A stretch of 64,000 bases of DNA. It comes from Halorubellus sp. JP-L1. Its GTDB lineage: Archaea; Halobacteriota; Halobacteria; Halobacteriales; Natrialbaceae. The stretch is from contig NZ_JAAOIR010000004.1 of the NCBI RefSeq assembly GCF_011440375.1, positions 62,001 to 126,000 of the forward strand. Reading direction: 5' to 3'. Below the pieces are notes generated by a model that saw nothing but the letters and a program-made list of their open reading frames with translations, did not search any database and was not told the origin of the DNA. How positions within the stretch are numbered: the first letter of the stretch is position 1; every line of letters begins with the position of its first letter. The position numbers and the translations under genes are program-made. Positions 31,264-46,838 of this stretch are shown in pieces.

Positions 31264-32388
31264 GTGAACTCCGCGCTCGACCTCCTGCGACTCCTCGTCG
31301 TCCCCTTCTTCGCGTGGGCCGCCTACACGGACGTCAAGACGCGACGCATCCCGAACCGCGTGTGGCCGCCGCTGTTCGTCGCCGGCGTCGTCCTGCTCGC
31401 GCTCACCGTCCAGCAGGCGCTCGCGCCGGGCGCGCCCTACGCCTCGCGCGTGCTGCCTGGAATGGTCGTGAGCCTCGGCGTCGTCGGGCCAGTCGCGTAC
31501 CTGTTCTGGCTGTTCGGCGGGTTCGGCGGTGCGGACGCGAAGGCACTGCTCGTGCTCGCGTTGCTGTTCCCGATCTATCCCGCGTACGATGTCGCGGGCG
31601 TCGTGCTTCCGCTTCCGGGGAACGAGAACGCGCTCGGGAGCTTCGCGTTCACCATCCTGACGAACACCGTCGTCGTCGGCGTCCTCTACCCGACCGCACT
31701 CGCCGCGCGCAACGCCGCGAACGGCGAGTTCTCGCTCCCGATGTTCCTCGGTAAGCGCGTCCCCGCAAGCGCGGTCGTGGACCAGTACGGGACGCTGATG
31801 GGAACGAACGACGGCATGGACGCGGGGAGCCTCGACCTGGACGCCCTCCGCATGTACCTGACGTGGCGCGGGACGACGCTCGCGGCCGTCCGAGGGAACG
31901 CCGACGAACTCCGCGATCCGGCGTCGCTTCCCGAGGACCGGAACGATCCCGGCGGCGGCCAGGTCGCGGAGGGTATCGACGACGAGTGCGTGGACTCGGA
32001 GCCGGCGCGCGCACCCGACCACGGCGACGGCGCGGTCGATTCCGACGCCGAACCGGATGTCTCGGGAACGATCGACGATACGGCCGGTGAGGATGCGGCG
32101 TCAGAGGACGATACGGCCGGTGAGGATGCGGCGTCAGAGGACGATGCGGCGTCCGAGGAAGATGGGACGTACGAGGACGCGTGGGGCGCGGAACTGTTCC
32201 TCGAGGAGGTCGAGGGCGACGCGTACGGGACCTCCCCGGACGCGCTCCGGGACGGCCTCGATGTGCTCGCGGACGCCGAGGGGGTCTGGGTGTCGCCGGG
32301 CATCCCGTTCATCGTCCCGATGTTCCTCGGGCTCGTCCTCGCGCTCACCGTCGGCGACCTCCTGTCGGCCGCGGTCCCGATGCTGTAA
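31264..32388 (+). CDS. pibD: A24 family peptidase, preflagellin/prepilin peptidase (PibD-like) with acidic insert
   Basis: A 374-residue membrane protease. Catalytic aspartates of the A24 family are present: Asp23 in AAYTDVKTRRIPN and Asp91 in the GxGD-type motif GGFGGADAKALL. Helices span about 5-20, 36-50, 65-85, 90-110, 125-150 and a last one near 350. Between residues about 185 and 330 lies a long hydrophilic domain with an extremely acidic stretch encoded by a 33-bp tandem repeat. PibD-type enzymes remove the positively charged leader from archaellins and pilins, so this could process the archaellin-like proteins at 9319-10555. Start codon GTG. Confidence 0.82.
   Translation: MNSALDLLRLLVVPFFAWAAYTDVKTRRIPNRVWPPLFVAGVVLLALTVQQALAPGAPYASRVLPGMVVSLGVVGPVAYLFWLFGGFGGADAKALLVLALLFPIYPAYDVAGVVLPLPGNENALGSFAFTILTNTVVVGVLYPTALAARNAANGEFSLPMFLGKRVPASAVVDQYGTLMGTNDGMDAGSLDLDALRMYLTWRGTTLAAVRGNADELRDPASLPEDRNDPGGGQVAEGIDDECVDSEPARAPDHGDGAVDSDAEPDVSGTIDDTAGEDAASEDDTAGEDAASEDDAASEEDGTYEDAWGAELFLEEVEGDAYGTSPDALRDGLDVLADAEGVWVSPGIPFIVPMFLGLVLALTVGDLLSAAVPML
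32074..32157. repeat. 33-bp in-frame tandem repeat in the A24 peptidase gene
   Basis: Two identical 33-bp units (32074-32106 and 32107-32139) and a partial, diverged third (32140-32157). Each full unit encodes DDTAGEDAASE. The perfect identity suggests recent duplication; copy number can vary without breaking the frame. Confidence 0.9.
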
Positions 32389-37436: not shown

Positions 37437-39032
37437 TCAGGCGAGGTCGCCGTCGACGGCGTCCTCGACTGCGTCCGCGAGGAGGCCCGAGCGGACGAGC
37501 GTCCCGGCGGCGTCCATCTCGGGCGACAACTGGCGGTCCTCGGCGAGGGGCGGTGCGACCTCGCGCACCGCTTCGACGGCCGCGGCGGACCCGACGCCCG
37601 GCGAGAGGCCGTCGTCGACGTACTCGAGCGCTTGCGCGCCACAGAGCAGTTCCACGCCGACGACCGTCGCCGCGTTCTCCACGGCGGTCTGGGCGTGCAT
37701 CGCCGCGCCCGCGCTCATCGACACGTGGTCCTCCTGGCCGCCGGAGACGGGCGTGTTGTCCGTCGCGGCGCGACCGAGACTCCGGCACTCGTTGACGAGC
37801 GCGGCGCTCGTGTACTGCGCGATCATGTACCCCGATTCGAGGCCGGGGTCGGCGGCGAGGTACGCCGGCAGGTGGTCCTCCTGGAGCTTCGGGTTCAGCA
37901 GGCGGTCCGTTCGGCGCTCGCTGATCGCCGCGAGGTCCGTCATCGCGGCGGTCAGGTAGTCGAGGCGGTGCGCGAGCGGGGCGCCGTGGAAGTTCCCGCC
38001 CGAGAGGATGGCGGCGTGCTCGGTGCCGCTCGCGCGCTCGTCGGTCGCGTCCGCGGCGAACACGAGCGGGTTGTCGGTCGCGCTGTTCAGTTCGGTCTCG
38101 ACGGCGTCCCGTAGATGGTCGACCGCGTCGCGGACCGCGCCGTGGACCTGCGGCATGCAGCGGATGGCGTAGGCGTCCTGGACGCGGTCGCAGTTCCGGT
38201 GCGATTCGACGATCTCGCTCTCGGCCGTGGACGCGCGGACGTTCCGCGCGCTCGCTGCTTGGCCATCGTGGGGCCGCACGGACTGGAGGGCGTCGTCGCA
38301 GGACGCGGTCGTCCCCATCGTCACCTCCGTCGTCAGGCCACCGGCGACGTCCGCGGCCGTGAGGATGCGTTCGGCGTCCACGACCGCCATCGCGGCGATG
38401 CCGACCGTCAACTGGGTGCCGTTGATGAGCGCGAGGCCCTCCTTCGGTGCGAGCGACACCGGGTCGAGGCCGGCGGCGGAGAGTGCCGCGGCGCCGTCGA
38501 CGCGCTCGCGCTCGTCCGGCGGCCCGCCCTCGGGCGGCTCGACGACTGCTTCGCCCTCGCCGAGGAGGACGAGCGAGAGGTGCGCAAGCGGTGCGAGGTC
38601 GCCGCTCGCGCCGAGACTCCCGCGCGAGCGGACGACGGGGTGAACGCCCTCGTTGAGGAACGCGACGAGGTGGTCGACGACGCGCTCGCGGATGCCGGAG
38701 TACCCCTTCGCGAGCGCGTTCACGCGAGTGACGAGCATCGCGCGGACCTCTTCGCGCGTGCAGTCCCGGCCGGCGCCGGCGGCGTGACTCCGCAGGAGGT
38801 TCGTCTGGAGCGTCTCCACGTCCTCCCGCGGGATGCGCTCGGTAACGAGGTCGCCGAACCCCGTATTGAGGCCGTAGACGGCCTCGCCGGAGTCGACGAC
38901 GTCCTCGACGCGCTCGCGGGACTCGCGGATCCGCTCGCGCGCCACCTCCGGGACGGCGACGGGCTCGCCCTCGCGGGCGGCCGCGACGACGTCCTCCGGT
39001 GCGAGCGTCTCGCCGTCGAGTTGGACGGTCAT
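37437..39032 (-). CDS. hutH: histidine ammonia-lyase
   Basis: A 531-residue enzyme of normal length that removes ammonia from L-histidine to give urocanate, first step of histidine use. The MIO cofactor triad Ala142-Ser143-Gly144 sits in RGSLGASGDLAPLAH; other family motifs are YGLNTGFGDL (53-62), QEDHVSMSAGAA and ATDNPLVF. No hutU, hutG or hutI is adjacent; a HutG-like gene lies 20 kb away at 59476. The start ATG (39032) has a GGAGG Shine-Dalgarno 8 nt upstream and is the last of five equally spaced ATG codons generated by a 32-bp tandem repeat; four short ORFs upstream each end on the next ATG (see below). Confidence 0.95.
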   Translation of the reverse strand: MTVQLDGETLAPEDVVAAAREGEPVAVPEVARERIRESRERVEDVVDSGEAVYGLNTGFGDLVTERIPREDVETLQTNLLRSHAAGAGRDCTREEVRAMLVTRVNALAKGYSGIRERVVDHLVAFLNEGVHPVVRSRGSLGASGDLAPLAHLSLVLLGEGEAVVEPPEGGPPDERERVDGAAALSAAGLDPVSLAPKEGLALINGTQLTVGIAAMAVVDAERILTAADVAGGLTTEVTMGTTASCDDALQSVRPHDGQAASARNVRASTAESEIVESHRNCDRVQDAYAIRCMPQVHGAVRDAVDHLRDAVETELNSATDNPLVFAADATDERASGTEHAAILSGGNFHGAPLAHRLDYLTAAMTDLAAISERRTDRLLNPKLQEDHLPAYLAADPGLESGYMIAQYTSAALVNECRSLGRAATDNTPVSGGQEDHVSMSAGAAMHAQTAVENAATVVGVELLCGAQALEYVDDGLSPGVGSAAAVEAVREVAPPLAEDRQLSPEMDAAGTLVRSGLLADAVEDAVDGDLA

Positions 39033-39064
39033 ACTGACTGCCTCCAGTTGCGCGGTGCGGTCAT
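39029..39064 (-). CDS. leader mini-ORF 4 of hutH (11 codons)
   Basis: Exact copy of mini-ORF 2; its TGA overlaps the hutH ATG at 39032. The hutH beginning (ATGACCG) is also the beginning of each mini-ORF, which suggests that the hutH start region was the template for the duplications. Confidence 0.5.
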   Translation of the reverse strand: MTAPRNWRQSV

Positions 39065-39096
39065 ACTGACTGCCTCCAGTTGCGCGGTGCGGTCAT
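39061..39096 (-). CDS. leader mini-ORF 3 of hutH (11 codons)
   Basis: Exact copy of mini-ORF 2 (MTAPRNWRQSV, TGA), shifted 32 nt, hence in another frame. Same SD and ATGA overlap. Confidence 0.5.
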   Translation of the reverse strand: MTAPRNWRQSV

Positions 39097-39128
39097 ACTG
39101 ACTGCCTCCAGTTGCGCGGTGCGGTCAT
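39093..39128 (-). CDS. leader mini-ORF 2 of hutH (11 codons)
   Basis: Reads MTAPRNWRQSV then TGA. GGAGG precedes its ATG by 8 nt; stop overlaps the next ATG by ATGA. Identical in sequence to mini-ORFs 3 and 4. Confidence 0.5.
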   Translation of the reverse strand: MTAPRNWRQSV

Positions 39129-39160
39129 ACTGACTGCCTCCAGTAGAGTCGTGCCGTCAT
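39125..39160 (-). CDS. leader mini-ORF 1 of hutH (11 codons)
   Basis: Reads MTARLYWRQSV then TGA. It is the first of four chained ORFs. Its ATG lies about 25-30 nt after a GATATG (TATA-like) element near 39188-39195 and so could be translated from a leaderless message. Its TGA overlaps the next ATG (ATGA). The first half differs from the other copies, the second half (WRQSV) is the same. Confidence 0.5.
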   Translation of the reverse strand: MTARLYWRQSV

Positions 39161-39338
39161 CGAATGCACCTCTGGTACTCGGTTCGCATATCTTCTGGAA
39201 CTGGTACGGCCGACGCCTTCGACCTTTCGCCGCCGGGCTTTTTCGACGTACAGAATCCCGCATACGAGGGCAGTCCTGTCCAGCGGGGGACGCGAGTTCA
39301 CCGAACGGATAAGGAACGTGGGGTCGTGGTCCCGCTCG

Positions 39339-45842: not shown

Positions 45843-46838
45843 TCAGCCGACGAACAGCAGCGGGATCATGACGGCGACCCCGGCGACCAGTCCGACGGCG
45901 AGTTCCCTGTGGCCGCGACCGGGGAGGTCCGCGCCGGCTTCGAGCGCTTCCGGGACGAACTCGGTGAGGACGAGGTACACCATCGCGCCGGCGGCGAACC
46001 CGAACCCGAACGGGAGGAACTCGCGCGCCCAGCGCACGAACGCGAACGCGACGACCGCACCGATCGGCTGGGGGAGACTGGAGAAGATGGCGGCGCCGAC
46101 CATCCGCCACTCGCCGACGTCCATCGCCCGCAGCGGGATGGAGATGGCGAGCCCCTCGGGGACGTTGTGGATACTGATCGCGACCGTCATGAATATCGCG
46201 AGCACGGGGACGGTGAGTCCGAGTATCGGAACTCCGCCTTCGAGGCCGAGTTCGGCGAAGGACACGCCGACGGCGACGCCTTCCGGGAACGAGTGCACGG
46301 TCAGGACGCCGAGGATGAGCACCAGTTTCTTGACGTCCGCCTCGGCGAACGCCGCCGGATCGATCCCGTGGTCGTGCCCGTGGCCGTGGTCGTCGTCGGC
46401 GTGGTGGCCGTGGTTGTGCTCGTCGTCGGCGTGGTGGCCCTGGTTGCGCTCGTCGTCGTCGTCGTGCTGGATGCTATCGTCCTGCGCGTCGTCGGCGTCG
46501 TCGTCGCGTGCGACCGGTTCGCCGCCGTCCGTGCTCGCACGACTGCCGCCGACGTCGACGCGTTCGAGGACGCGGTTCGCGACGACGACGAGGGCGACGC
46601 CGGCGAGCAGGCCGAGCGCGAGGAGCCACGGGGTGCCCGTGGACTCGGCGAGCCCCTCGTCGATGAGTCCGAACAGGGACGCCGAGAGCATGATGCCGGA
46701 AGCGATCCCCCAGAGGGCGACGTTCCAGCGGTCGCTCACGTCGTCGACGAGGAAGAACGGGATGGCGCCGAGCCCGGTCGCGATGGCCGTGACGAGGCCG
46801 GCCACGAACACGAACGCGAGCGCGACGAACTCGACCAT
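45843..46838 (-). CDS. ZIP family metal transporter with His-rich loop
   Basis: A 331-residue ZIP transporter with about eight helices. Metal-pathway motifs are HSFPEGVAVG and HNVPEGLAIS. The loop between helices 3 and 4 (about 105-160) is extremely rich in His and Asp, with repeated GHHADD(E/D)H units, a likely zinc sensor or chelator. ZIP proteins move zinc or other divalent cations into the cytoplasm. A TATTATGC box (46861-46868) lies 22 nt upstream: leaderless. A dead copy of its first 38 codons and its promoter is at 54063-54225. Confidence 0.92.
   Translation of the reverse strand: MVEFVALAFVFVAGLVTAIATGLGAIPFFLVDDVSDRWNVALWGIASGIMLSASLFGLIDEGLAESTGTPWLLALGLLAGVALVVVANRVLERVDVGGSRASTDGGEPVARDDDADDAQDDSIQHDDDDERNQGHHADDEHNHGHHADDDHGHGHDHGIDPAAFAEADVKKLVLILGVLTVHSFPEGVAVGVSFAELGLEGGVPILGLTVPVLAIFMTVAISIHNVPEGLAISIPLRAMDVGEWRMVGAAIFSSLPQPIGAVVAFAFVRWAREFLPFGFGFAAGAMVYLVLTEFVPEALEAGADLPGRGHRELAVGLVAGVAVMIPLLFVG

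Follow-up and report, generated by a model that had tools for sequence, protein, structure and literature searches.

The window analysed here, a stretch of 64,000 nucleotides from Halorubellus sp. JP-L1, carries on its minus strand the histidine ammonia-lyase gene hutH (37437–39032, ATG at 39032; 531 aa), whose product matches PF00221 and also TIGR01225, where it scores 648.9 bits (cut-off 539). A NUDIX hydrolase gene (PF00293; 39318–39923, plus strand) is oriented divergently, and hutH is therefore the first full-size gene on its own transcript. Upstream of hutH, five minus-strand mini-ORFs (ORF0–ORF4) are joined by five consecutive ATGA stop/start overlaps into a chain that ends in hutH itself. 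ORF0 (MRTEYQRCIR, 39157–39189) is the positional counterpart of a single mini-ORF seen in relatives (L002–L008, see below), and its TGA overlaps the ATG at 39160. From this ATG four tandem 32-bp units (39033–39160, minus strand) run down to the hutH ATG. The diverged unit 1 forms ORF1 (MTARLYWRQSV, 39125–39160), and units 2, 3 and 4 form ORF2 (39093–39128), ORF3 (39061–39096) and ORF4 (39029–39064), each reading MTAPRNWRQSV; the TGA of ORF4 overlaps the hutH ATG. A Shine-Dalgarno (SD) motif precedes every chained start, GAGGTG at 39160 and GGAGG plus 8 nt at the other four, including that of ORF2. Thus, two features of translational coupling are present: a 4-nt stop/start overlap (RTGA) at all five junctions, and an SD within the upstream ORF ahead of the downstream start, which is common in coupled genes and not essential.

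The initial annotation had described a chain of four overlapping 11-codon ORFs leading into hutH. Its sequence and coordinates hold, but the number does not, as ORF0 (ATG 39189) adds a fifth member upstream; the gatATG that had been taken for a TATA-like element near the first ATG is the start codon of this ORF. Re-reading the sequence bore out the GGAGG, 8-nt spacer and ATGA of each 32-bp unit as well as the final TGA overlapping the hutH ATG. It is also correct that no unit loses its start or stop although 32 is not a multiple of three, which follows automatically from the unit design: the unit begins with ATGA, its length is 2 mod 3 and it holds no internal stop in that frame.

TRF reports the repeat with period 32, 3.7 copies, 100% match and a score of 238 (39026–39144). 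The core TGGAGGCAGTCAGTATGAC occurs four times in the window, compared to zero expected in shuffles even with three mismatches allowed, and among 125 family genomes the array is found in one species only. A 21-base core (ACTGGAGGCAGTCAGTATGAC, up to two mismatches) is absent from the rest of the genome and from the 124 other family genomes. A genome-wide regulatory site or a mobile repeat was considered for the unit and rejected, the core being found at hutH only in the 125 family genomes. Units 2–4 are identical, and unit 1 differs from unit 2 at five positions (6, 11, 12, 14 and 16), all of them outside the SD/start half; GGAGG, spacer and the next ATGAC are the same in all units. The differences fall in four codons and change the residue in three of them. 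Unit 1 matches the hutH 5' end at 10 of 19 positions (p 0.017), which is only suggestive of an origin of the unit from the gene's own 5' end. We infer, with weak support at hutH, that a coupled junction was recently expanded in tandem to give the array. Such an expansion would be tolerated because a unit of 2 mod 3 leaves hutH coupled.

The comparison with other haloarchaea gives the upstream mini-ORF a context. Among 109 hutH loci, 72 lie behind hutI and 37 stand alone. In 58 of the 72 the hutI stop overlaps the hutH start, ending 4, 8 or 11 nt beyond the first base of the start. All seven nearest relatives (L002 of the same genus, L003–L008 of the sister genus) have one mini-ORF of 13–19 codons that ends with RTGA at the hutH start, and the peptides and lengths of these mini-ORFs vary while the frame is constant. 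A frame test was conducted on 34 lone hutH loci with RTGA starts, the window being left out; an ATG located at -85 to -18 and open up to the start was counted, and 300 dinucleotide shuffles served as null. A mini-ORF in the coupling frame is found in 19 of the 34 leaders, compared to 5.6 +/- 2.2 in the shuffles, none of which reaches 19. The other two frames hold one and none, compared to 5.8 and 5.6, and at genus level (13 genera) the coupling frame counts 8.0 versus 1.9 expected. The remaining 15 leaders are without an ATG mini-ORF under the criterion used. Judging from the sequence patterns, the coupled mini-ORF before lone hutH genes is real and is probably translated, and a single short ORF often occupies the place of hutI where hutH stands alone.

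A stretch coding for RSC(A) lies 50–83 nt before hutH in the leaders of one group of genera (L010–L012, L016–L022, L026, L027, L029, L136, L143 and L152); it shows third-position variation in CGN and TGY and stands at many distances from hutH, with few exceptions in the coupling frame. Where an ATG is missing, as in some of these leaders, translation may begin at GTG or another codon. The hutU gene (G000:C4:5648–7342) shares the contig with hutH at a distance of about 94 kb; in G013, a genome of the same genus, two hutU genes and a second hutH-like gene are present.

A promoter-like box, CGAAAGGTCGAAGGC (39215–39229, minus strand), ends 25 nt upstream of the ORF0 ATG. L003 has an identical copy, the copy in L002 differs by a single change at the end and that in L004 by one or two changes, and in these three it stands 22–23 nt ahead of the single mini-ORF ATG despite diverging flanks. 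The position of the box would suit an archaeal core promoter of a nearly leaderless transcript. As a TATA element it is a poor match. When 17 representative leaders were pooled and anchored on the mini-ORF ATG, AT content peaked at 51% at -35 to -26 (p ~0.03, best window); no such peak was seen when the same 17 leaders were anchored on the hutH start. Each repeat also contains a TATA-like GTATGA, some 30 nt ahead of the following ATG, so that transcription might instead start inside the array. In the leaders of L005–L008, CCCTTCGGGCTGGC is conserved with minor variation roughly 30 nt ahead of the mini-ORF, and the complement of this motif is similar to the CGAAGG box of L001–L004, possibly one regulator site in opposite orientation.

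On balance, we consider it reasonably probable that ribosomes pass through the five mini-ORFs into hutH by a relay of termination and reinitiation. The hutH transcript would probably begin at or just upstream of the ATG at 39189; ribosomes would initiate on ORF0, terminate at its TGA and reinitiate on the ATG that this stop codon overlaps, and the same step would be repeated over the four 32-bp units, each supplying an SD and ATGA, until the last reinitiation takes place on hutH. ORF0 would be the ancestral mini-ORF, standing in for hutI, the coupling partner of hutH in most haloarchaea. Published work on Haloferax volcanii provides the rules for such a scenario: SD motifs do not drive de novo initiation and are used at overlaps for reinitiation (PMC6728339), coupling at overlapping genes is strict (PMC6728339, PMC10666635), and reinitiation is lowered by a gap of 13–14 nt and nearly abolished at 22–23 nt (PMC10666635). 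In E. coli an upstream ORF of 15 nt is enough. Because a gap of about 20 nt abolishes coupling in Haloferax, a chain would be needed to hold hutH coupled over 128 bp; an insert whose unit begins with ATGA, is 2 mod 3 long and has no other in-frame stop would itself relay automatically. The relay would thus maintain the coupling of hutH and probably lower its output with each unit. With a per-step efficiency e below 1, hutH output would be about e^5 instead of e, and as output would fall with each step the unit number would be a dial. The serial termination-reinitiation leader proposed in the initial annotation hence gains indirect support, namely from the conserved single coupled mini-ORF of the relatives and from the Haloferax rules. 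For the single coupled mini-ORF the indirect evidence is good; the role of the repeats is one that we infer.

Other readings of the array have to be weighed against this relay. Many genes are coupled without repeats, so the array may be neutral. Indeed, hutH could be expressed from a leaderless transcript starting at about 39032, the mini-ORFs being rarely or never translated and the repeats being neutral products of slippage. Leaderless initiation is the rule in haloarchaea (72% of transcripts in Haloferax; PMC4983044), the TATA-like GTATGA of each unit lies some 30 nt from the next ATG, and the identity of units 2–4 marks them as young. We nevertheless regard this scenario as rather unlikely, because neither the coupling-frame bias of lone hutH leaders nor the frame-keeping length variation of the relatives' mini-ORFs would be expected if these were untranslated, and because the conserved box stands upstream of ORF0 and not of hutH. 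A misassembly would be a far less plausible explanation still, and in fact the least probable of those considered: the array is known from one assembly, but its 128 bp are short enough for single reads to span, the genome is assembled in 5 contigs and 99.8% complete, and the divergent unit 1 anchors the array.

Improbable, too, is the view that the repeats function at the level of DNA or RNA, as sites for binding factors or as structures, with the ORF chain as a by-product. Exact tandem copies between promoter and gene, together with a small inverted repeat (ACTG-GAGG-CAGT), would fit such elements. The leader, however, shows no folding beyond that of shuffled sequences (z 0.40 and 0.34) and matches no Rfam family, which leaves it without the stable or conserved RNA structure of a riboswitch or structured leader; moreover, the unit has no other genomic copies, as a regulon site would, and the relatives lack it. 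An attenuator whose mini-ORF peptides stall ribosomes upon sensing a metabolite appears very improbable, even though short leader ORFs precede an amino-acid catabolic gene here and histidine is encoded in some of the relatives' mini-ORFs (MNDCRTLHDSHEVRHR, MHEHREREPNGGGQP). Between g1 and g2 species the peptides differ without conservation, and a run of regulatory codons, as in amino-acid attenuators, is missing from ORF0–ORF4, which contain no histidine codon at all; three of the four codons that differ between units 1 and 2 alter the residue. The earlier argument that classical attenuation is unlikely without histidine is reasonable for the repeats; the relatives' mini-ORF peptides lack sequence conservation. 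A His-rich leader was likewise dismissed, histidine occurring in some of the relatives' mini-ORFs without conservation.

The nearest natural analogue is the mycobacterial interspersed repetitive unit (MIRU). MIRUs are short repeats that occur in tandem copies as well, and their copy number varies among strains. Like the hutH array they sit at start codons and contain an internal ORF that is coupled to the host gene at -4, which minimises harm (review PMC12548453). They belong to another domain of life and have another sequence, lie within operons instead of behind a 5'-terminal mini-ORF, and are dispersed and apparently mobile, whereas the 32-bp unit is found at hutH only in the 125 genomes; since it is not dispersed, we do not class the array as a MIRU. 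Another related system is termination-reinitiation (TeRe) in Haloferax volcanii (Huber 2019, 2023; PMC6728339, PMC10666635), a member of the same taxonomic class, where ATGA overlaps with an SD in the upstream frame occur as they do here; those pairs, however, are full-size genes with one overlap, while at hutH several ORFs of 10–11 codons are chained. In bicistronic designs, including the leaderless BCD (PMC10367133), a short translated fore-cistron with an internal SD feeds the main ORF, as proposed here. The leaderless BCD, the nearest engineered analogue, corresponds to the arrangement that we suggest for the relatives' hutH, although these designs are synthetic and bacterial and use a single fore-cistron instead of a relay. 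Haloarchaeal leaders with short ORFs are also known from the long 5'-UTRs of H. volcanii, with 16 cases of 15–31 codons (PMC4983044); stop/start coupling or repeats are not reported for them. Tandem-repeat mini-ORF relays in archaea were not found in the open-access literature.

Similar junctions do occur in other haloarchaea. A search that allowed any frame covered GGAGG-N7-ATGA pairs in 125 genomes of the family and 392 of the order, and GGAGG-N8-ATGA pairs in the 125 family genomes. In the 61 distinct rows besides the window (transcribed by hand and partly non-independent, as tandem units and sister-species orthologues recur) the spacing is 2 mod 3 in 54 and 0 mod 3 in 7, while 1 mod 3 does not occur. 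Very few matches were obtained with the reversed pattern. Most junctions examined sit between two large co-directed ORFs. Among the tandem cases, G048 has three units of 50 bp ahead of the gene for a zf-ChsH2 protein (PF12172), G122 two units of 50 bp, G285 and G380 units of 35 bp, G285 also units of 26 bp, and G275 units of 29 bp; the hutH chain of five is the longest found with these patterns. The mini-ORF MSVTAVVRTVVRTEVTA of G111 has a beginning similar to that of the downstream protein (MSVTAIVR) and an end similar to that of the upstream protein (TEVTA), and the mini-ORFs of G275 copy the end of the upstream protein (EAALRKEATA). Such copied ends are what tandem duplication of an overlap junction yields. 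One may tentatively envisage, though with some doubt, a general haloarchaeal class of junction relays in which tandem duplications of coupled junctions, tolerated only if their length preserves the frame, insert mini-ORFs that hand ribosomes on, and in which the unit number tunes the stoichiometry of the downstream protein.

Further observations concern individual junctions. In the own genome, outside the window, one junction (L265, G000:C1:141747–141763) has a 59-bp unit that makes up a mini-ORF of 20 codons (MSERRERMRVRPNAVREVDS), and the product of the following gene resembles the zf-ChsH2-type proteins encoded next to comparable junctions of relatives. The motif GCGAATGCGAGTACGCC is found repeatedly, both at junctions of this kind and between unrelated genes, in some cases as a 50-bp tandem, and is possibly a MIRU-like haloarchaeal element. 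In one genus the gene MTTVRVRGIYTTA has a 21-bp in-frame SD/start repeat, whereas another genus has a 32-bp relay unit at the same gene (L230/L234 in G109, L227 in G037), as if its start region were prone to tandem duplication.

Self-contained mini-ORF chains would offer a natural ruler for termination-reinitiation: plotting output against the number of steps would give the efficiency per junction in an archaeon, a quantity to which there is otherwise little access. From the mod-3 rule one can also predict which insertions survive at overlapping gene junctions. As annotation pipelines usually skip ORFs of 7–20 codons, relays have probably been overlooked. With the hutH array, haloarchaea would have their own equivalent of the mycobacterial MIRUs, and the bicistronic designs of biotechnology a natural version with several steps.

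Two other tandem repeats were seen in the window. At 46374–46466 a 30-bp repeat (TRF, 3.1 copies) would read as His/Asp-rich on the minus strand if coding, and possibly encodes a metal-binding linker; at 32074–32150 a 33-bp repeat is present in 2.3 copies with 97% match.
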